The notes below the pieces were generated by a model. It searched no databases. It worked only from the letters and a program-made list of their open reading frames with translations, and was not told the DNA's origin. Positions 18,245 to 27,634 of a DNA stretch of 62,234 nucleotides are shown here, in pieces. The position numbers were made by a program, and so were the translations under genes. Numbering within the stretch: position 1 is the stretch's first letter; each line of letters opens with the position of its first letter. The stretch is from Photorhabdus khanii NC19 (GTDB lineage: Bacteria; Pseudomonadota; Gammaproteobacteria; Enterobacterales; Enterobacteriaceae): assembly GCF_000517265.1 (NCBI RefSeq), contig NZ_AYSJ01000015.1:51905-114138 (forward strand), read 5' to 3'.

Positions 18245-19060
18245 ATGAAAAAATTATTCTCTGCTTGTCTGGTATTTTTATCGCTGTTCTCATCAGGTGC
18301 TGCGGCATCAATATTTTCATATATCACTAAATCTGAAGGTGTTCCGACAAATGCCTATTATACTTTTGTGATTGAACGTTGGGACGAAGAAAACGATTTT
18401 ACGCCAAATCCTTGTTATGGTTATTCTGCGTGTTGGGTGTCTGTTAACCATCGTCATAGTGTAGACGGTTATTCAGGGCAGCCATATAAACTATTCAATA
18501 TCCGTGTAGAGAGATACAGGACGATGAAACAAGTTCAGGCTCAGATATTGAAACAAACCAGTTTTCCAATTACCGGAATTGCAAAACATGTTGGCCCGGC
18601 TATTCAGTTTCATCAGGAATGTGTGGGGTTGTTTTATGAAACTGATCGAAATGGTTTTAGAGGGAGACTATTGCCGGGATCTTTATGTGGTGTTGCACCC
18701 CCTCCGATAGGTTTTTGTCAAGTAAGTGAGGGGTCAGTTGAACTTAATTACGGTAATATTGATGAAGCAGAATTGGAAGGCGCAAGCAGAACTGAGAATA
18801 TTAATGTGACCTGTAATAGAGATATAGAGATTGTTGTGACAGCGACGGGTCCTGATAGGGGATTCGTACCGTTGAGAAGTGATGGTAGTTTAAAAGCCCA
18901 GTTGTTATTAAATAATAGAAGAGGCGAAGAGGGTGTTTCTGTTTTTGTACCGGCTGGAGGAAGCGTACCAGTTATGGTGAAATCAGTTTTACAGAAAAAT
19001 GGCAAAGTAGAAGCCGGTCCTTTTTCTGGATCAGGGGCAATAATTTTGGCAATGCCATAA
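18245..19060 (+). CDS. madI: fimbrial tip adhesin (MrpH-like)
   Basis: A 271-residue two-domain protein with a signal peptide (SSGAAAS). The N-terminal half (about 20-155) has Trp, Cys and His residues (NPCYGYSACWVSVNHRHS) and no pilin fold, which is expected of a receptor-binding domain. The C-terminal half (GFCQVSEGSVELNYGNI...INVTCNRDIEI) is a pilin domain that lacks the donor-strand N-terminal extension, as in tip adhesins. In Proteus MrpH the binding site is zinc-dependent with conserved His; His150-type residues here would need checking. Receptor is unknown; nematode tissue is plausible. Confidence 0.82.
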   Translation: MKKLFSACLVFLSLFSSGAAASIFSYITKSEGVPTNAYYTFVIERWDEENDFTPNPCYGYSACWVSVNHRHSVDGYSGQPYKLFNIRVERYRTMKQVQAQILKQTSFPITGIAKHVGPAIQFHQECVGLFYETDRNGFRGRLLPGSLCGVAPPPIGFCQVSEGSVELNYGNIDEAELEGASRTENINVTCNRDIEIVVTATGPDRGFVPLRSDGSLKAQLLLNNRRGEEGVSVFVPAGGSVPVMVKSVLQKNGKVEAGPFSGSGAIILAMP

Positions 19061-19091
19061 AATAGGGTGTTATTTTAAGCTAAAGGTTGGG

Positions 19092-19397
19092 ATGAAAATG
19101 AGACAAGATCATCTATTAGTAGGGAAGCGTATTCAGAAAAGAAGGAAAGAATTAGGCATAACCGCAGTAAAATTGGCGGAGCAAATAGCTATCAGCCAAC
19201 AACAACTTTCACGCTATGAGAGAGGGATAAACCGCATTAATTTATCCCATTTGGTGCAGATTGCTTCAATATTGGATACACCGATAAACTGGTTTTTCCT
19301 TGATTGTTGTTATCCTGCAACCAATAACAGCGTCAGTAAATTAACAGACCAATATATTCCTATTGCGGAAGCGACATTGGGTAAATTTGGATGTTAA
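19092..19397 (+). CDS. madJ: MrpJ-like HTH regulator at the end of the fimbrial operon
   Basis: A 101-residue XRE-family protein. The helix-turn-helix covers about residues 9-62 (VGKRIQKRRKELGITAVKLAEQIAISQQQLSRYERG). The arrangement of a single HTH gene as the last gene of a fimbrial operon matches mrpJ of Proteus, which represses flagellar genes when fimbriae are expressed. The same attach-or-swim control is plausible here but is inference. It is co-transcribed with the pilins and therefore under the same switch. Confidence 0.85.
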   Translation: MKMRQDHLLVGKRIQKRRKELGITAVKLAEQIAISQQQLSRYERGINRINLSHLVQIASILDTPINWFFLDCCYPATNNSVSKLTDQYIPIAEATLGKFGC

Positions 19398-19450
19398 CTG
19401 ATTATGGCTTAAATAGGGGGAAGATATAAACCGGTTGATGGCTGAGTTTC

Positions 19451-19487
19451 GTGACCGACGGAACGGTCACTTTAATGGTTTTTTGTC
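19451..19487 (+). terminator. intrinsic terminator of the fimbrial operon
   Basis: GTGACCG and CGGTCAC form a perfect 7-bp GC-rich stem around ACGGAA (19451-19470). A T-rich tail (TTTAATGGTTTTTTG) follows. Confidence 0.75.
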
Positions 19488-19573
19488 AGTGATATCGCCA
19501 CAAGAAATGAATAGTTTATTCTTATCTATTTATTTTATTTTTTTAACAATCATTAATGCTATAACTGAAATAT

Positions 19574-19819
19574 TTATTGAAATTTTAGAATAAAGTCACC
19601 ACCAACGTGTAACTCTCTTGCGCCTTCCCATTCTGCTCCTTTTAACTCATGATCGAGATATTTTTCCGGTAACTCTTTATCTGAAAAAATCAGTTTCATA
19701 ACCTCAATCATATCGTTCATATTTCTACGACCAGCCCGATTATAACGTTCCCAAGACTTTGCAAAAGTACGTGTATACTCTATCCGTCGGGGTAATTTAC
19801 TCCGTTTGTTGTTTATCAT
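19574..19819 (-). CDS. YafQ/RelE-family toxin, C-terminally truncated
   Basis: An 81-residue protein with clear YafQ features: IEYTRTFAKSWERYNRAGR at the start, LPEKYLDHELKG, and WEGARELHVGGDFILKF. Full YafQ toxins run about 10-20 residues further, through a segment that carries the catalytic His and often an Arg. Here a stop follows ILKFQ, so the ribosome-dependent nuclease site is probably incomplete and the toxin likely inactive. It overlaps the antitoxin gene by 23 bp. Confidence 0.75.
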   Translation of the reverse strand: MINNKRSKLPRRIEYTRTFAKSWERYNRAGRRNMNDMIEVMKLIFSDKELPEKYLDHELKGAEWEGARELHVGGDFILKFQ

Positions 19820-20075
19820 TCAGTCCCTTGAGCATGGTTTCTACAGAGTGATAACGATGTTCTGCTTTTATTTCCAGTTCTTTGGCTTCTTGTAAGGCTG
19901 CCAGTGTCTTAGTAGAGGGGCGTCGTTTAACTTCAAAGGGTAACCCTTGAGATTGCACAACTTGTTCTAAGAATAGACGAATGGCACTGCTGACGGTGAG
20001 GCCACAATCATTCAGGACAGTCATAGCGTTGTTTTTCAGCTCTTCGGAGATCCGTGTCTTAATACTTGTTTGCAT
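19797..20075 (-). CDS. dinJ: DinJ/RelB-family antitoxin
   Basis: A 92-residue protein starting at ATG 20075 (MQTSIKTRISEEL) with a strong GGAGGATATC ribosome binding site. The N-terminal ribbon-helix-helix (KTRISEELKNNAMTVLNDCGLTVSSAIRLFLEQVV) and GLPFEVKRRPS are typical DinJ. The longer open frame upstream lacks a good start. It would bind the operon promoter and the toxin. It appears intact although the toxin is shortened. Confidence 0.82.
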   Translation of the reverse strand: MQTSIKTRISEELKNNAMTVLNDCGLTVSSAIRLFLEQVVQSQGLPFEVKRRPSTKTLAALQEAKELEIKAEHRYHSVETMLKGLNDKQQTE

Positions 20076-20106
20076 GATATCCTCCTCATTATGTTGTGAG
20101 TACATT

Positions 20107-20348
20107 GTGCCCACAAATAAACTTGAATTCAACTTTTTCTTACTTGCCAATGGTGAGGAAGCAGTTAAAGAGTATGATACGGATGTTGATTTATTTAATG
20201 ATATAACTGAAAGATTCATTGAGATTTTACGACACCCTCTTTACGGCGGGGAGCAGTCACAAGAGTGAAAAAATTAAGAGTATTATCAATTTTTTTTAAA
20301 TTCATAGAAGCAATTATTGGTTTTTTGTTGGTTGTTCTATTTTATTGA
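20107..20348 (+). pseudogene. possible remnants of two small coupled genes
   Basis: One open frame (GTG 20107 to stop 20268) reads a plausible acidic helical protein end, EEAVKEYDTDVDLFNDITERF. Its stop overlaps a GTG at 20265 that opens a 27-residue hydrophobic peptide (KKLRVLSIFFKFIEAIIGFL) ending at 20348. The overlap and the GGGGAG upstream suggest once-coupled genes of some mobile element. I recognise neither, and the overlap with the dinJ promoter region argues that they are relics. Confidence 0.25.
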
Positions 20349-20456
20349 AATTCCACGATAAAATTAGAAAGCTTTTAGTTTTAAAGGTTTTTTGTGATGA
20401 GTGATACTCAGCGTGTTTATCTGACATTCCCATCATTAAAAAATGTGTTCTCTGAC

Positions 20457-20493
20457 TACGGAAGCACCCATTTCAGATACAGGTGCTTCCGTA
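20457..20493. terminator. strong hairpin downstream of the NUDIX gene
   Basis: TACGGAAGCACC and GGTGCTTCCGTA form a perfect 12-bp stem with a 13-nt loop. It lies 50 bp after the last gene of the minus-strand nucleotide operon. T runs are short on both sides, so it may act as a weak terminator or an mRNA 3'-end stabiliser. Confidence 0.6.
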
Positions 20494-20545
20494 TTTGCAA
20501 CAGTATTAATTACATAAAATATACATTATACCAATAACACCGCAT

Positions 20546-20986
20546 CTAACCCCGCATTTCTGTTATTTCAATTTCTTTATCGAAACGTAAATGCTCATCG
20601 GCAGCCATTGGAATTAACCAACGTAAGTTATAGATAACATTATCGGGTAATGCATTTGTTTCATAGATATTGACGATCTCTTTTTCAATAGATTTTGCAG
20701 AATAAACCCGATCATCACACATAGAGAGAAAATTTACCCGATAAATGTCAGGGCGAGTTAAGATAGTAAATAGTCGCCATTCTTCAGGGCGTGTTTCAAT
20801 TCCTGCTTCTTCAGCGAATTCTCTTGCCATTGCCTGTTGAGGGTTTTCACCTGCCTCTATTTTACCGCCAATCCCGTTAAGTTTCCCTGTTTGCCAACTG
20901 GGTTGTAATTTTGAGATTAAAGCGACATGTTTTTTATCTTTAGAAAACATAAATCCAGTTACATAATGAATCATTATTTTTTCCAC
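20546..20986 (-). CDS. NUDIX hydrolase (last gene of nucleotide operon)
   Basis: A 146-residue protein with a full NUDIX box, GGKIEAGENPQQAMAREFAEEAG at about 40-62 (G-x5-E-x7-REx2EExG). These enzymes cleave nucleoside diphosphates linked to another moiety. The GTG start at 20986 lies 6 bp after the stop of the PurA-like gene; an ATG four codons in (20974) is an alternative. Tight spacing makes it part of that operon, where it may sanitise or release a nucleotide intermediate. Substrate is unknown. Confidence 0.85.
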   Translation of the reverse strand: MEKIMIHYVTGFMFSKDKKHVALISKLQPSWQTGKLNGIGGKIEAGENPQQAMAREFAEEAGIETRPEEWRLFTILTRPDIYRVNFLSMCDDRVYSAKSIEKEIVNIYETNALPDNVIYNLRWLIPMAADEHLRFDKEIEITEMRG

Positions 20987-20991
20987 TATTA

Positions 20992-22251
20992 TTATTGAAT
21001 GACTAATGTCTGATTTCTATCTGGTCCATATGAGACATACTTGATAGGAACTCCAGCATAGTCTTGAATAAAAGACAAGAAGTTAATCAATTCGGTGGGA
21101 AGCTCTGCCAAGTGTGTATATGATCCGTTAAGCTCTCCCCAGCATTTAAAGGTTTTATAGATAGGTTTTGCTCTGTCTAACTGTAATAATGCGTTATCAC
21201 AACTCACGATTTCATCGTCAATGTCATATGCAATAGCCGCTTTTATTTCGTGTAAGCCAGCAAGAACATCAACATTCGTGATTGCCAGTTCTGTTACCCC
21301 ATTGAGTTTTACCGCATGTTTAATCAGAGATAAATCCAACCAGCCACAACGTCTTGGCCTTTTTGAAACGGTACCATATTCGTTTCCACGCTCCCGAATA
21401 TAATCAACTTTTTCGTCAGATAATTCTGTGGGGAATGGCCCATTACCTACGCGGATCATATAGGATTTCATCACACCGACAATATGTATTTTCTGCGCCG
21501 GTATACCTATCATAGCAAAACAAGTTTGAACTAATGTTTGATACGCTACGGTATAAGGATAAGTACCGAAACTATTATCTAAGAAAGTGGCTTGTGATGT
21601 TTCAAGTAAAACATCTTCTCCAGCATTCAGTAAATCACCGATAACTTCATTGGTGAATGTGAAATAAGGCTCTATTCTCTTGCCATATTGATACGTTTTT
21701 TCTAGCATCTCCTCAAAATCTAATGTGGCTTCTTCATTAAAAACATGATTAATCTGTTTCTCCCTGATATCCCAAAGAAATTCTAATTTAGTTCTTAATT
21801 TCTCTTTATCTAAGGTATCAATAAGCCGGATACCATGACGATTAGATTTATCTTCAACACAGGCACCGACGCCGATACCAACCGAGCCTATTTTATTTTT
21901 ACCTTTATATTTCTCTGATGCTTTATTTAGCTCGGCATGTAATGGTAAAACAATATGGCAGCGGGGATCGATAAATATGTTAGAGTTAATGTTTTCTTTT
22001 TGTATGAAATCAATCTCTTTAATGAGTATCGGTAGGCTAATTAACGCTCCTTGACATATATATAAATTTTTTTCATTCAATGATGAGGGTAATTGGGAGA
22101 ATGATCCTCTTATGTTTCCACATTGTACACTATGGCCGGCATTTGCTCCGCCATTAAATCTGGCGACGTTATTAATATTAACGGATAAATAGTCAACAAA
22201 TTTTCCTTTCCCTTCATCTCCGAATTGGAGTCCAACGACAGAAATTAACAT
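20992..22251 (-). CDS. divergent adenylosuccinate synthetase (PurA) paralog
   Basis: A 419-residue PurA-fold protein. Kept: the P-loop GDEGKGK (11-17) with catalytic Asp12, GGANAGH with His40, FGTYPY, NVDVLAGL and the VGNGPFPTEL aspartate/GTP segment. Changed: the IMP loop of PurA (GTTGRGIGP) reads GSVGIGVGA; the LEGAQG motif reads LETSQA; and the aspartate loop TTGRRRR reads TVSKRPRR. Housekeeping PurA joins IMP and aspartate using GTP. The changes around the IMP pocket, together with its place in an operon with PriA-like, PRPP-type, HAD and NUDIX genes, suggest a different nucleotide substrate, or a drug-resistant target copy. It has lower GC than the three genes upstream. Confidence 0.85.
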   Translation of the reverse strand: MLISVVGLQFGDEGKGKFVDYLSVNINNVARFNGGANAGHSVQCGNIRGSFSQLPSSLNEKNLYICQGALISLPILIKEIDFIQKENINSNIFIDPRCHIVLPLHAELNKASEKYKGKNKIGSVGIGVGACVEDKSNRHGIRLIDTLDKEKLRTKLEFLWDIREKQINHVFNEEATLDFEEMLEKTYQYGKRIEPYFTFTNEVIGDLLNAGEDVLLETSQATFLDNSFGTYPYTVAYQTLVQTCFAMIGIPAQKIHIVGVMKSYMIRVGNGPFPTELSDEKVDYIRERGNEYGTVSKRPRRCGWLDLSLIKHAVKLNGVTELAITNVDVLAGLHEIKAAIAYDIDDEIVSCDNALLQLDRAKPIYKTFKCWGELNGSYTHLAELPTELINFLSFIQDYAGVPIKYVSYGPDRNQTLVIQ

Positions 22252-22386
22252 AAATTTATTCCTTTTATTTATGGAGTTAGCATAGATAATAGTTAAACTT
22301 TATCTTTAATCATTTATTTTTAAATGACCAAACAGATTTCTTTTTATTATGGTTATTTTGGGCAGTTATTTTTAATAAATCCCTTT

Positions 22387-23055
22387 TTATTGTTTATATA
22401 CCAGCGAATCGGCTATTAATAATGCTTCACTTAAGGTATCAACAATGGGGACACCTGCGGTTTCAAGACTTATACGGCTGTGGGTTCCCCCGGTATATAG
22501 AATGGCATGAGTACCTGCCGCTAATGCCGCAATGGCATCATCAGTAGCATCACCAATAACAACACTTTGCTCAGGGGAAATATTGAGGTTTTTTACGTGA
22601 TTAGCCAATTGCACTGATTTGCCGGTTGTCAATAATGGCGTATTTCTGCCATCTATACAGGTAAAGAATTTGCCAATGCCATGATTGTCAATCATAGGCA
22701 ACAATTCATCATGTTGCATCAGTGAGCATAATGATTGAGTAGCACCAGCTTGATAGCGGGAAGCAAGTAACTGGCTTACGCCTTCAGTTAAACTGGCTTT
22801 TTGCAGGCCCGGTCGATAGTGAAGATTAAATGTGTTTCCGATCACTGACCATTCAGAGGATGAGGGTTCACGCCCAATCACTTGTTTATAGAACGCTTGT
22901 ACCGGAACACAATAATATTCCCGATATTGTTCCAGCGTCAGTGGTCCAATGCCAATTTCAGCAAGTGCAAAATTCGTTGCATTTAACGCTGCGTTGACGT
23001 CATTAAGCAATGTTCCATTCCAATCCCAAATAATATGTGCTGTTGCCATAATCAA
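22387..23055 (-). CDS. HAD-superfamily hydrolase (DWNGT type)
   Basis: A 222-residue Gph-like HAD protein. Motif I is DWNGTLL (Asp11, Asn13) and motif IV is VVIGDATDDAIAA. The usual second Asp of DxD is Asn here, a variation common in one group of HAD proteins, so phosphatase activity is likely but not certain. A helical cap domain occupies about 20-85. Its start overlaps the stop of the PRPP-motif gene by 4 bp. In this operon it could dephosphorylate a nucleotide to a nucleoside. Confidence 0.82.
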   Translation of the reverse strand: MIMATAHIIWDWNGTLLNDVNAALNATNFALAEIGIGPLTLEQYREYYCVPVQAFYKQVIGREPSSSEWSVIGNTFNLHYRPGLQKASLTEGVSQLLASRYQAGATQSLCSLMQHDELLPMIDNHGIGKFFTCIDGRNTPLLTTGKSVQLANHVKNLNISPEQSVVIGDATDDAIAALAAGTHAILYTGGTHSRISLETAGVPIVDTLSEALLIADSLVYKQ

Positions 23056-24266
23056 TTATTTCCCTTTTCCAAACTAATTTTCCGAGCAGAACATTCAGGG
23101 CATTGATGTGCCAAGGTCTTAAATGCATCTATTGGTTGCTCACAATTCAGTGGTGTTTGTGATTCCAGATTCGATAGAAAACGCAATAATTTTGTTGCCC
23201 ATGTTGAGTCTGCCAGGGTGTCATGAAGGACAGATAACAAACTGTATGAATAGGCGACCCAATCCGCAGTGGTTGTATGAGCATATTTACCATCAGTTAA
23301 GAGCTGGGTAACCAAACTGTTTAGTACCCGATGATGTCTGAAACACCAAGGTGTCAATACATCTAAAGTTTCGGGGCTAAATATACGATCAGGATGCCCA
23401 TAAGTACGGGTACGTAATAGTTTTTCCCAGTGTAGTTCGATGGCTCGTGCTTTCGGACGTTGCCCGGTTTCCGTTATCACCAAGTCGATCGCCTGACGTA
23501 AGGTATCTCCTGTTCCACAATTATCATCAATAATCGTCACTGTTTGCCCAGACGGAATGTCATGTCCCCACAGACGATTGCTCTTATTAGATGCATCGTC
23601 GTAGCGTGAGATTTTCACTAAATTGAGATCGCTGCCCCATGCCGCTGCGGTGACTGCTGCTGCCGATGATCCTCCCAACATAATGCCAACAACCGAGGCG
23701 TTTGGGCATGCATCAATTTGTGCCGCGGCTAACGTTAACAGGTGATTATCCCCTTCAATATACGGTCTGGGCACTTTGTGTTCCGAAGAAAACGGCAATT
23801 TCAGGTCACGGATCGAGGAGGATGAAAAAGTGAATGCTGTGCCTGTCAGTGTTGAGCTGACGACTTTAGCGCACTCTTTGACCCCATCAATGAACGGCAC
23901 AATATCTTCGTTAACAGTTTGCGGAGAGCTTAATAAGCTATCAATAACTCTGAGCAACTTTGCCAGGATATGATCGGCTAATATATATTTTGATGGGGTG
24001 GCACACAGCTCATCTGTACACTGGAGTTGAGTGATGTGCTCCGCGTAATATTTCGCTGTCGCTAATAGGTCCTGGCAAGATTTTTGTTCGTAATAGGCAA
24101 CGCCGCGGGAACCGACGAATTCCGATGTCTCTGTGAGTAAGCCCGGAAGCGACACGACTTCTTTTGCTAAATAGCCTGCTTCAGGTATGCCGCGCAACTC
24201 ACCCAATAAACCAATAGCGCGAAGATTCAAAGCCGGAGATAAAGAGAATGTCCAGGACATATTCAA
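23052..24266 (-). CDS. phosphoribosyltransferase-domain protein of unknown substrate
   Basis: A 404-residue protein. The segment VTIIDDNCGTGDTLRQAI (243-260) is a PRPP-binding loop of the type I phosphoribosyltransferase fold, and IMLGGSSAAAVTAAAWG (about 195-211) is the preceding Gly-rich loop. The N-terminal 150 residues and the C-terminal 130 are not recognised; near the end, CPEC (389-392) may bind metal. Stop/start overlaps of 4 bp on both sides tie it to the PriA-like and HAD genes. It may attach or remove a base on a ribosyl phosphate; the base cannot be read. Confidence 0.7.
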   Translation of the reverse strand: MNMSWTFSLSPALNLRAIGLLGELRGIPEAGYLAKEVVSLPGLLTETSEFVGSRGVAYYEQKSCQDLLATAKYYAEHITQLQCTDELCATPSKYILADHILAKLLRVIDSLLSSPQTVNEDIVPFIDGVKECAKVVSSTLTGTAFTFSSSSIRDLKLPFSSEHKVPRPYIEGDNHLLTLAAAQIDACPNASVVGIMLGGSSAAAVTAAAWGSDLNLVKISRYDDASNKSNRLWGHDIPSGQTVTIIDDNCGTGDTLRQAIDLVITETGQRPKARAIELHWEKLLRTRTYGHPDRIFSPETLDVLTPWCFRHHRVLNSLVTQLLTDGKYAHTTTADWVAYSYSLLSVLHDTLADSTWATKLLRFLSNLESQTPLNCEQPIDAFKTLAHQCPECSARKISLEKGNN

Positions 24267-25048
24267 CTCCTCGGCGATTGCGTTGCGGCAAGGGCGTCTT
24301 CGAGAGAAACTTTACCGATATGTAAAGCCTGACCAAGAATTGCACCTTCAACACCCAGCGTGTACATGTCCGCTAAAGCACGCAGATCATCTATGCTTGA
24401 TACCCCGCCGCCGGCAATCACGGGTGATGAAGTTTGCGCACAGACTTCACGTAATAGGGTGAAATTTGGTGAACTCATCATGCCGCCCCGCTCAACATCG
24501 GTCACGACGTAGCGCTGACAACCTTGTCTATCAAGGCGTTCAAGTACATCCCAGAGATTGCCATTGTTGACATTCCATCCGTGGGTTGTCAGTTGATAAC
24601 CTTCTGATGTGCTTCTTACATCTAAGGCGATTGCGATTTTATCGCCATGCTCTGCAATAGCCCGGGCACACCAATCTGGTTTTTCTAATGCGGCGGTTCC
24701 CAAATTAACCCGCTGGCATCCGGTTGCTAATACTTTGCTCAAAATCGCTTCATCTCTGATCCCGCCACAGACCTGGACATGAATATCGACTGCGGCAATA
24801 ACATCAGCAATCAAATGGCTGTTTGAACCTCGCCCTGATGCCGCATCAAGATCAACAACATGTATCCATTTCGCCCCGGCATTTTGCCAGGCCAGTGCGA
24901 CCTCTACCGGGGTACCTAAAGGTCTCCGCAATGTTGAATTTTCACCACGGGTTAATCGAATCGCAGAATTCGATGTCATCGCTATGCCGTCAACAATATC
25001 AACAGAGGGAAAGACCTCAAATGTTTCCTTACTTATCATTAGATTCAC
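24263..25048 (-). CDS. HisA/PriA-like (beta-alpha)8 isomerase, actinobacterial type
   Basis: A 261-residue TIM barrel of the HisA/HisF family. It looks closer to the actinobacterial bifunctional PriA than to enterobacterial HisA: WIHVVDLDAASGRGSN, GGIRDEAILSKVLATGCQRVN, LGTAALEKPDWCARAI and LWDVLERLDRQGCQRYVVTD all follow PriA wording. The catalytic Asp pair is present (Asp17 and Asp143, with Asp184 in VTDVERGG), and both phosphate-binding Gly loops are intact. HisA isomerises ProFAR to PRFAR, and PriA also serves in tryptophan synthesis. A second copy outside the his operon, heading a nucleotide operon, suggests a dedicated biosynthetic role and transfer from an actinobacterium. Confidence 0.85.
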   Translation of the reverse strand: MNLMISKETFEVFPSVDIVDGIAMTSNSAIRLTRGENSTLRRPLGTPVEVALAWQNAGAKWIHVVDLDAASGRGSNSHLIADVIAAVDIHVQVCGGIRDEAILSKVLATGCQRVNLGTAALEKPDWCARAIAEHGDKIAIALDVRSTSEGYQLTTHGWNVNNGNLWDVLERLDRQGCQRYVVTDVERGGMMSSPNFTLLREVCAQTSSPVIAGGGVSSIDDLRALADMYTLGVEGAILGQALHIGKVSLEDALAATQSPRS

Positions 25049-25785
25049 CTAAATAATCCCAAATATATAATTTATAAACTAATAACAATATGTGATTAAT
25101 TCAATTATAGGTTGTAACTTAATTAACAGAGATTCTTCTTGGTTCTTTGAAAATGAACAGATTAATTAATGATTCAAGCTAATCGTTCATCAACTCATAG
25201 TAATGAAAAGAAAAAATTTCTCAACATAGTTATAACGAATTAAATAAATTATATGGTTTTATTCAGTTGCTGAATCTCATGTTTAATTAATAATTTACTT
25301 AATAAGAGTTAGTTTGTCATTGGAGAAATATAAGTTCGGTTGAAATGTGCTGAAAATCAACACTGACTTTATTTTAAATAGGAGGATTGATTACTCTTAA
25401 TCAATATGCTGATCACCTAACAATAAGTAATACTGTTTTTTTAGGTAAATGTTTTATATATTGTAGTCTGTATTAAATAAATGAATCATATTGACTGTAA
25501 GTGAATAAATTTAAATAATTTAATTCTGCTGGTTGCTTTGTCTGTTTATATTCATATATATTATGACAGGTGTCTATTTTATCATTAATATTAATATAAT
25601 TACGAATATGTAATTTCATTAATCACTTTGTTGGTGGTTTATATTTTTAATTTCATTAATTTGAAAACATATAATGTGAAATAATCTTATTGGAAAGATT
25701 AATTATAAAGGATTAAAACACAGGGTAATTGAGTAAACGCAGTCTGGTAACAGACTGCGATTCACCCAATTAATATTTTTTTAAT
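25049..25785. other. AT-rich intergenic region upstream of the nucleotide operon
   Basis: About 740 bp, very AT-rich, with no supported gene. It must contain the promoter of the minus-strand operon starting at 25048, but no distinctive -35/-10 pair or operator stands out. The permease terminator occupies its right end. Confidence 0.5.
25727..25771 (-). terminator. intrinsic terminator of the permease gene
   Basis: Core stem CGCAGTCTG/CAGACTGCG with a 4-nt loop (25738-25759). In the minus-strand RNA the flanks extend it to about 21 pairs with G-U wobbles. A short U-rich stretch follows the core on that strand. Confidence 0.7.
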
Positions 25786-27108
25786 TCAGGAAAATGCCAA
25801 CAATGGTGAGATACACAATAGGAATCCGGTAAAGATAATCAGGATCAGCGATATTCCTTTATATTTGTGCAACGCTGGCACTTTGTAGACCAAATAAGCC
25901 GGGATTAGGCAACCAACCATACCGAATATTGGGCTACAGATTGATGTAAAACTCAGTACCGGTGCATTCAGAATAATCGCTCCCCAAGCCAGCAGGATAG
26001 CGAAAATCATGATGCCTTTTTGTACCCAGTTTTTATTGATTCTTTCTGCTGGCATGATACGCGCCAGAATATTCATCACTATGCCTTGGGTTGCTTCACG
26101 GAAGCCAAGATAAACGCCAAAGAAGGCGGTCATCACAGCAAAGATATTCAGCAAGACACTGATAGCCGTTACCCAGCCCCCGGGAAAGAATTTTGCCGCA
26201 ATCGCCAAAGCAGAGATATTTTGTTCATAAGCTTGAACCGCTTCATCATGTCCCATTGCTAAGGTGAATGAAACTGCATAGAAGAAGACCGTACAGAACA
26301 GGACGCCAAAGGCGATATTCATCGCTCTTAATGCCTTATAGCGGGCGACTTCACGATTTTTCTGGTGATGGCGATAAGAGATAACCATTGGGCTTAAGGT
26401 TTGAATAAACAGAATGGAAGTCAGGGTAAATGGCAGCGTAATGATCGCCTGTTTTATCAGCGTTCCTGCTGGTGGCAGCGCGCCGATATTATATAAGTGC
26501 CACATACCTATCATGGATAAGCCAAGCGTCGCGACGACAAACAGTTTGGACAGCACCATAAAGCTGGATAATTTGAACAGGAATCGCTCACCACAGGATG
26601 AAAGCGCAACCAGAATACAAATCAGTACCAGTCCGTAGAGAGGATTGTCGGATAATAAACCTTCAGTGACGCCGAAAGTTTGCAGGTAGGAAGCGCTGTC
26701 ATTGGTGATGGCTGTTGAGTAAACAAACATCCAAATTACCAGCATAACAAAGTAGAGCGCACCCAGCAGAATGCCCCAGTTTTTACCGAGATAACCGCTG
26801 ATAACGCTAGGGTAATCTTTGCATTCGGGGGATTCCGCCAACGTATTGATAAACAGACGTTGGAACAGGTACATCGCCGGATAACCAATCACCGATGACA
26901 GCAGGAAAACCCACAATCCCATCAAACCAACCTGAACCGGCAGGAAGACAATACCGGCACCGATTGCCATGCCGATGCTCATGATGATCCAGCCAACATC
27001 AAGATTGTTGAATTTGATAGCTTCCCGCCATTCATTTTCAGTCATGTTTGCCCGCTTTGCCGCAGGAGAATCTGCGACCATGATAGGGTTATTTTTTGCC
27101 GTTTCCAA
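25786..27108 (-). CDS. HAAAP-family amino-acid permease (YhaO/SdaC type)
   Basis: A 440-residue inner-membrane protein with about eleven membrane spans. The start FNNLDVGWIIMSIGMAIGAGIVFLPVQVG is typical of the hydroxy/aromatic amino acid permease family, closest in memory to the serine/cysteine-related transporter YhaO. The cytoplasmic N-terminus is about 35 residues. It stands alone, without the desulfidase or dehydratase gene that often accompanies this family, so the substrate is uncertain; serine is most likely. Confidence 0.82.
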   Translation of the reverse strand: METAKNNPIMVADSPAAKRANMTENEWREAIKFNNLDVGWIIMSIGMAIGAGIVFLPVQVGLMGLWVFLLSSVIGYPAMYLFQRLFINTLAESPECKDYPSVISGYLGKNWGILLGALYFVMLVIWMFVYSTAITNDSASYLQTFGVTEGLLSDNPLYGLVLICILVALSSCGERFLFKLSSFMVLSKLFVVATLGLSMIGMWHLYNIGALPPAGTLIKQAIITLPFTLTSILFIQTLSPMVISYRHHQKNREVARYKALRAMNIAFGVLFCTVFFYAVSFTLAMGHDEAVQAYEQNISALAIAAKFFPGGWVTAISVLLNIFAVMTAFFGVYLGFREATQGIVMNILARIMPAERINKNWVQKGIMIFAILLAWGAIILNAPVLSFTSICSPIFGMVGCLIPAYLVYKVPALHKYKGISLILIIFTGFLLCISPLLAFS

Positions 27109-27634
27109 AATGGCTCTCGCTTATTATTTACGTTAAAAATGTAAGTGTTATAGGGAAGAGATGCAGCATGATGATGCCAACCCTATTTTTTGAGATTCGT
27201 ATATATCAGTGTATTTCACTATGCAGATTAGTCGTCAGTAAGAAGATAACGGGTGTACATTTTCGCGTTACAGAATAATCGATCAGGTATAAGTGAAAAA
27301 TAGAAATTATTTTTTAATGACATAAATTGATAGATCATAGTGAAGTATTTTAATTAACTGATTTTAGTTTCTTTTTATTCTGTTATAAACAGTGAAAAGA
27401 AGAAAATTGAGCAAAAAAAACCAACAATTATAAAAAATAATGGTAAGTGGCTTTCACATTAGATAGTTTAAACAGAGATAACAGAATAAGATAATGATTT
27501 ATGTCAATTAAATATAAAATATCAAAATGTTTCACTGCCGGTATCGGGTATTGTTGCAAATAAAGAACCATGCTGGAATATCTCTGTCAGTTATTCACAT
27601 GGCATGGTTCAGGTAAATTCAGCAGGAAAATGGG
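27109..27634. other. intergenic region between permease and fdo operon
   Basis: About 525 bp, AT-rich, no gene supported. It contains the permease promoter on the left and the likely fdo terminator at the right. Confidence 0.5.
27565..27610 (-). terminator. likely terminator of the fdoGHI operon
   Basis: GAACCATGC and GCATGGTTC can form a 9-bp stem around a 28-nt loop. On the minus strand the stem is followed by TTTATTTG. It lies 25 bp past the fdoI stop. Confidence 0.55.

Follow-up and report, generated by a model that had tools for sequence, protein, structure and literature searches.

A conserved five-gene cassette in Photorhabdus khanii as a candidate pathway to a nucleoside-like metabolite

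Introduction

Why should a bacterium that keeps its own HisA and PurA also carry divergent relatives of both, grouped with a phosphoribosyltransferase and two hydrolases in one small locus? The question is raised by a 62,234-nucleotide stretch of Photorhabdus khanii NC19 DNA (hereafter the window; contig NZ_AYSJ01000015.1, positions 51,905 to 114,138), in which positions 20546-25048 hold five minus-strand open reading frames (ORFs); the host genome is 5.23 Mb in size. A preliminary description, made from the letters of the window, had read these ORFs as a laterally acquired nucleotide-modifying operon. All five were found at the positions that it gave, and matches to Pfam and NCBIfam agree with the families that it named. 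In gene order, they are:

24263-25048, minus strand: PriA/HisA-like (beta-alpha)8 isomerase paralog, with a GTG start at 25048 or an ATG start at 25039
23052-24266, minus strand: type I phosphoribosyltransferase (PRT), with the phosphoribosyl pyrophosphate (PRPP) loop motif IIDDNCGTGDT and a largely helical N-terminal part
22387-23055, minus strand: HAD hydrolase, nucleophile motif DWNGT
20992-22251, minus strand: PurA (adenylosuccinate synthetase) paralog, GTP loop kept, 5'-phosphate threonines replaced by Val (V124, V235)
20546-20986, minus strand: NUDIX hydrolase, Nudix box complete

With moderate confidence, we propose that these genes constitute a dedicated cassette, spread horizontally, whose five enzymes make a specialised metabolite resembling a nucleoside or nucleotide.

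The five genes are conserved in order beside differing neighbours

The same five genes occur in the same order in 12 Photorhabdus (the window included), five Xenorhabdus-type and three Vibrionaceae records; beyond the window, this means 11 Photorhabdus records, four Xenorhabdus species, one Xenorhabdus-like metagenome-assembled genome (MAG) and three Vibrionaceae. For Photorhabdus G008, the stretch fetched holds the first four genes. This synteny exceeds chance, and the earlier proposal of a dedicated set, which depended on the genes being conserved together elsewhere, withstood the neighbourhood search in other genomes.

Our probe for the wider survey was the PRT, the most specific member of the cassette. 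It is present in 12/12 same-genus genomes, in 0/85 other relatives (97 relatives in total), in 1/394 genomes of an order-wide sample and 1/321 of a class-wide sample (the window's own genome in both), and in 3/299 of a phylum-wide sample: the own genome and two hits (G1070, 22 bits; G1111, 19 bits) that match the PRT core weakly, span fewer than 90 positions of it and were not counted as cassettes. The genus of Xenorhabdus szentirmaii, MAG included, yielded 6/30 (a count of PRT matches, G1013, G1027 and G1031 being entered by that match), and the family of Aliivibrio sifiae, the Vibrionaceae, 3/247. A peptide-pattern scan of a species-genome collection (84,980 species), which was also our coverage of Actinomycetota, found 17 loci: 11 in Photorhabdus, four in Xenorhabdus, one in the MAG and one in Aliivibrio. 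All 17 hold the five genes in order, some of them in damaged copies. Patterns drawn from the window protein may miss distant kin: Vibrionaceae genome G677 surfaced by profile only, and it and a further member of that family, G665, likewise carry all five genes. We found no PRT relative among 72,556 plasmid records or 50,697 phage records, nor, with the peptide patterns, in viral contigs; a phage or plasmid element is therefore unsupported.

All five genes are under purifying selection: the ratio of nonsynonymous to synonymous substitution rates (dN/dS) is 0.05-0.16 in 15 comparisons (five genes, the window against P. australis, X. innexi and the MAG), and in each of the three comparisons it is highest for PRT. 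The three Vibrionaceae copies are 59-61% identical to that of the window in PurA, 51-56% in NUDIX, 46-47% in HAD, 42-47% in the isomerase and 32-37% in PRT.

The surroundings of the cassette vary. A 440-residue ORF that Pfam assigned to no family, and that we read as sdaC-like, lies upstream in the window, P. thracensis, P. australis and P. asymbiotica; two Xenorhabdus records and the MAG have neighbours that read as frmA/frmB-like; the X. szentirmaii cassette adjoins other ORFs; and the Aliivibrio cassette is flanked on both sides by ORFs that, again by reading, are transposase-like. Because its order is conserved beside such different neighbours, the cassette is transferable, and the evidence supports the five genes having moved as a single unit. 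Lateral acquisition, as had been proposed, is in keeping with the cassette as a whole, in view of these neighbours and of its occurrence in 6/30 and 3/247 genomes of the two groups above, but it finds no sign in composition. The first three genes are indeed richer in GC, as was described (48.9, 45.8, 42.6, 36.8 and 36.8% in gene order), but GC at third codon positions is 0.41-0.42 in the first two against a window mean of 0.41 (standard deviation 0.075; 18 long ORFs), and the Vibrionaceae copies have no GC gradient along the cassette. Composition is therefore no mark of recent transfer, and we dropped the GC difference as a sign of it. PRT occurs in every genome of the genus sample, and within Photorhabdus it is therefore either ancient or stably maintained.

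The isomerase resembles PriA but lacks its catalytic aspartate

The first protein had been likened to actinobacterial PriA rather than enterobacterial HisA, an assignment borne out by profile scores, family models, identities and a tree. In a profile comparison with solved structures, the best 11 sequences scored 242-263 bits, eight of them being named phosphoribosyl isomerase A, and the next, HisA entries, reached 119 bits at most. Within Pfam family His_biosynth, the NCBIfam hisA-trpF model TIGR01919 gave 296 bits (slightly below its cut-off of 306) versus 185 bits for TIGR00007. For the window protein, identity is 53-56% to two PriAs, 46% to the copy in Aliivibrio and 33% to HisA of the host. 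In a tree of 13 rows (with two PriA and two HisA only, and a long-branch warning) the eight operon isomerases form one clade (support 90/90); since they also share a 6-residue insert in the first loop, these isomerases are likely of one origin.

We mapped residues by alignment to 2y85, in Mycobacterium tuberculosis PriA numbering. The equivalents of the catalytic Asp11 and of Asp130 are invariant (D17 and D143), and those of Thr170 and Trp145 are kept in the operon isomerases, but the equivalent of Asp175, a position at which HisA of the host has Asp, is Gly (Gly188) in 8/8. In PriA, Asp175 is called catalytic, and Ser81 and Arg143 are given roles in binding phosphoribosyl anthranilate (PRA) and in TrpF activity (PMC13055916). 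The PriA pattern at these two PRA-binding positions is absent from the eight isomerases: Ser81 is replaced by Cys (Cys94 in the window) in 8/8, and at the position of Arg143 there is His in 6/8, Gln in 1/8 and Arg in 1/8. The same changes, Ser81 to Cys and Arg143 to His, characterise AdeK, a PriA copy from the cluster for adechlorin and 2'-amino-2'-deoxyadenosine that rescued hisA, but not trpF, mutants (PMC13055916). Gly in place of Asp175, together with the 6-residue insert, sets the cassette isomerases apart from PriA and AdeK. A protein of this kind has probably been met before: in a 2015 paper, P. luminescens Q7N8D1, used as a HisA, was removed as an outlier from a PriA profile, such outliers being deemed possibly interesting candidates (PMC4462073). 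Q7N8D1 is likely the P. luminescens cassette isomerase.

The PurA paralog has lost two ligands of the IMP phosphate

The PurA paralog matches Adenylsucc_synt (PF00709) at 434.7 bits, and is 33% identical to the host's own PurA. We mapped its residues by alignment to the Helicobacter pylori adenylosuccinate synthetase 6zxq. In the H. pylori enzyme, the phosphate of inosine monophosphate (IMP) touches Thr121, Thr230, Asn37 and Arg135 of the neighbour subunit, Thr121 and Thr230 being side-chain ligands (PMC11571797 Table 3). The equivalents of the two threonines are Val124 and Val235, invariant in 8/8 operon PurA paralogs; the four canonical PurAs that we compared have Thr at both positions. The equivalents of Asp12, Asn37, Arg135 and Arg294 are kept, as are the GTP loop and the active-site His. 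Judging by these residues, the paralog probably retains the use of GTP and of an aspartate-like amine, whereas IMP in its usual pose would not be its substrate.

Canonical PurA and the phage enzyme PurZ share full-length PurA-family likeness with the paralog, which differs by Val at the phosphate threonines and by its low score against the NCBIfam PurZ model (98 bits, cut-off 300). All 7/7 genomes searched have a canonical PurA besides the cassette copy; the window's genome encodes its canonical HisA and PurA on contigs other than that of the cassette, and, as was said from the outset, no his or pur genes adjoin the cassette. We also considered the aspartate loop of the paralog as unusual and dropped this, the Val and Lys at its changed positions occurring in solved PurAs. 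In the A. sifiae genome (G438), L052:7077-8333 is one more PurA-like gene, the third, whose motifs are altered (STRQGIAPAYGD); by reading, it adjoins LysR-like and glutamate decarboxylase-like ORFs, with no other cassette gene near.

The phosphoribosyltransferase, HAD and NUDIX proteins

Type I PRTs bind PRPP through a loop with the motif DDxxxTGxT, and this loop is intact, as DDNCGTG(D/K)T, in 8/8 cassette PRTs. The Pfam match of the window protein, to Pribosyltran, is 26.8 bits and narrowly passes the cut-off of 26.3. A fold search with its predicted model (predicted local distance difference test, pLDDT, 66.8; predicted template modelling score, pTM, 0.73) returned general PRPP-binding folds (phosphoribosyltransferases and PRPP synthetases) at low template modelling (TM) scores and gave no substrate hint; by sequence, no close solved relative of PRT was found. 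The third gene product belongs to HAD_2. The nucleophile motif of HAD phosphatases is usually DxD, and in 8/8 cassette proteins it is DWNGT, with Asn for the second Asp. In the fifth, of family NUDIX, the Nudix box is complete (GX5EX7REUXEEXGU, as printed in PMC6112128). PADLOC gave one match, to the NUDIX protein at 31 bits, and no defence system.

Could the cassette simply be an extra HisA and an extra PurA accompanied by phosphatases, retaining textbook reactions as a redundant backup? Such a role would suit the kept equivalents of Asp11, Asp130 and Trp145 in the isomerase and of Asp12, Asn37, Arg135 and Arg294 in PurA. However, Asp175 and both phosphate threonines are lost in 8/8 despite purifying selection, and unlinked housekeeping functions would have no reason to stay together in distant bacteria; we regard a backup as highly improbable. 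The changes of Asp175 to Gly, Ser81 to Cys and the PurA threonines to Val, together with the DxN motif of HAD, are why the cassette enzymes probably do not run textbook reactions; with the catalytic Asp175 and both phosphate threonines lost, the family names overstate the known chemistry.

Likeness to known nucleoside clusters

The preliminary description knew of no described system with this set, and we found none in the titles and abstract openings of the papers that open full-text literature searches listed (subscription papers and supplements lie outside this scope). Passages of PMC6136348 and of PMC4706420 (the latter on canonical purA only) offered nothing on the cassette. There are, however, partial likenesses. 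In the tubercidin cluster of Streptomyces (PMC6112128), a PRPP-dependent transferase builds a nucleotide, PurA/PurB chemistry is proposed and a Nudix enzyme removes phosphate; in contrast, the cassette has no genes for a radical S-adenosylmethionine (SAM) enzyme, CPH4 synthase, UbiD or a reductase, and PurA/PurB are proposed as borrowed in the tubercidin pathway, whereas the cassette has a dedicated PurA, plus PriA-like and HAD proteins. The adechlorin cluster differs in that the cassette is without a hisG-like gene or a SAICAR synthetase (phosphoribosylaminoimidazole-succinocarboxamide synthetase) gene. Closer to the host, the adg cluster of P. luminescens (3'-amino-3'-deoxyguanosine; PMC9239236) is also a small Photorhabdus nucleoside operon, with phosphate removal proposed for AdgD and AdgE; its adgB and adgC are pur10 and pur4 homologues (oxidation and amination proposed), and by family content alone the cassette has no such genes. 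The thm cluster of P. asymbiotica (4'-thiothymidine; PMC12691670) is a set reported in Enterobacterales and Vibrio in which a nucleotide triphosphatase gives self-resistance; it differs in comprising three genes that include a radical SAM enzyme, which is absent from the cassette. Our best reading is that the cassette would be akin to the tubercidin, adechlorin and adg/thm clusters in logic while belonging to none of them.

Proposed function and its rivals

What we observe directly is a conserved cassette, the selection acting on it and its residue changes; which substrates are used, in what order, and what is made we infer as follows. The pathway would open with the PRT, joining PRPP and an unusual base or amine. 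Next, the PriA-like barrel would enolise or isomerise the phosphoribosyl part with no help from the usual general acid, perhaps acting on a substrate that is already open-chain. With GTP, the PurA-like enzyme would couple aspartate or a similar amine to an oxo group of a purine-like ring, the 5' end of this substrate not being gripped as IMP would be. HAD and then NUDIX would remove phosphate, as final steps or as protection of the producer. A pathway that combines transfer from PRPP, a step of the PriA type, an amination like that of PurA and the removal of phosphates would most likely fit a nucleoside-like product. We favour this reading because the five-gene synteny has different flanks, dN/dS is 0.05-0.16 and canonical HisA and PurA are retained, and also because of the substitutions shared with AdeK, the PurA Thr-to-Val changes, the logic of tubercidin and the precedent of two Photorhabdus nucleoside antibiotic clusters, both confirmed through heterologous expression (PMC9239236, PMC12691670).

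Several points weigh on the other side. No metabolite is known for the cassette, which has no base-making enzyme, and no transporter is constant beside it (a major facilitator superfamily, MFS, gene in 2/18 records). The phosphate ligands Asn37 and Arg135 are kept in the PurA paralog, so a phosphorylated substrate is possible. The PRT assignment draws its support from a Pfam match that is weak and from a structural model with a pLDDT of 66.8. Three copies look broken, which may reflect assembly or sequencing error: X. budapestensis (L026) has a shortened hisA and a split prt, P. luminescens DSM 3368 (L018) a purA in two pieces, and P. caribbeanensis (L020) an early stop in HAD. Finally, PRT in 12/12 same-genus genomes resembles a core function more than a patchy antibiotic cluster; presence throughout the tested Photorhabdus would be compatible with salvage or with an internal signal.

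Salvage or repair would entail taking in or detoxifying an unusual purine-like base or damaged nucleotide, with no secreted product: PRT would ribosylate, PurA aminate, and HAD and NUDIX clean up. These four are typical salvage and house-cleaning families, a general function would predict the uniform occurrence of PRT in the genus, and a constant exporter is absent. But PriA-type isomerases are not known to take part in salvage, the loss of the threonines that hold the IMP phosphate suits ordinary nucleotides poorly, and PRT is absent from nearly all sampled relatives; we therefore consider salvage unlikely.

Less likely still is an intracellular signal or cofactor-like nucleotide tied to a luminous, animal-associated life style. 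Among the Vibrionaceae, luxA is present in 29/247 genomes and in 3/3 cassette carriers (hypergeometric 0.0015, or 0.0125 once the genome that prompted the test is removed; the test was devised once a single example had been seen, among genomes that are not statistically independent); luxCDABE follows the cassette in one of these genomes, and luxA is present in 3/3 Photorhabdus genomes tested. Yet luxA was found in 0/3 of two Xenorhabdus and the Xenorhabdus-like MAG, and 26/29 luxA-bearing Vibrionaceae are without the cassette, so that we treat the lux association as a lead only. The arrangement concerned (L055:12831-19248; G665:C2) has a Vibrio TDH-family gene and then luxCDABE directly downstream of the cassette, in the same direction.

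A bolder version of the nucleoside-like pathway, which we put forward tentatively, is that it is of a new type: a PriA-derived barrel without Asp175 would make a sugar rearrangement not known among HisA and PriA enzymes and feed a PurA-derived ligase with a reduced IMP phosphate site, giving a metabolite common to luminous and nematode-symbiotic bacteria. If the proposed pathway is right, this compact cassette (five genes, 4.5 kb) would provide a third, chemically different nucleoside-type pathway for Photorhabdus, an insect-killing genus already mined for antibiotics that act on Gram-negative bacteria, and a PriA-type enzyme would have been recruited to specialised metabolism outside Actinomycetota, without its acid catalyst.

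Gene starts, gaps and flanking regions

Two non-coding features complete the locus:

22252-22386, minus strand: AT-rich 135-bp gap between the HAD and PurA genes, with no Rfam match
25049-25785, no strand assigned: upstream AT-rich stretch, presumed promoter region, GC 0.24-0.25 mid-stretch

GTG or TTG is the listed start of four of the five genes, and downstream ATG codons (25039 for hisA, 24260 for prt) fit the conserved protein starts of relatives better, which makes the exact gene overlaps uncertain. The 4-bp overlaps described earlier exist with the GTG/TTG starts; ATG starts instead leave 2 bp between hisA and prt, a spacing that some relatives share. The NUDIX protein probably starts at an internal Met (MIHYVTG), where its relatives begin; the gap before its listed start is 5 bp, not the 6 bp first given. 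The tight packing first described does not extend to the junction of HAD and PurA. This gap measures 133 bp in L031, 188 bp in L030 and 173-319 bp in 12 records among the Photorhabdus and Xenorhabdus-type copies (a range that leaves out L018 and L020, with their damaged genes), whereas the two genes overlap in 3/3 Vibrionaceae.

No Rfam RNA matched within 19000-27500. A consensus promoter scan, which bears on the presumed promoter region at 25049-25785, and a terminator scan did no better than shuffles (20 vs 20.0 and 3 vs 4.5, respectively).

The MFS genes, all of one family, are those just downstream of the cassette in L028 (8352-10268) and L029 (10140-11387), 72% identical to each other; a TetR-type regulator adjoins the one in L028, and L027 and L030 have other transporter-like ORFs by reading. 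Downstream of the NUDIX gene in the window, 19574-20219 holds RelB-type antitoxin and YafQ-type toxin genes; partial antitoxin matches occur near the cassette in L016, L024, L025 and L031, and a partial toxin match in L031 only. The upstream stretch at 25049-25785 (0.7 kb, GC down to about 0.24) is AT-rich likewise in five other aligned Photorhabdus and contains short conserved blocks, such as TATTAAGTAAAT, present in 4/6 and with one change in the other two.

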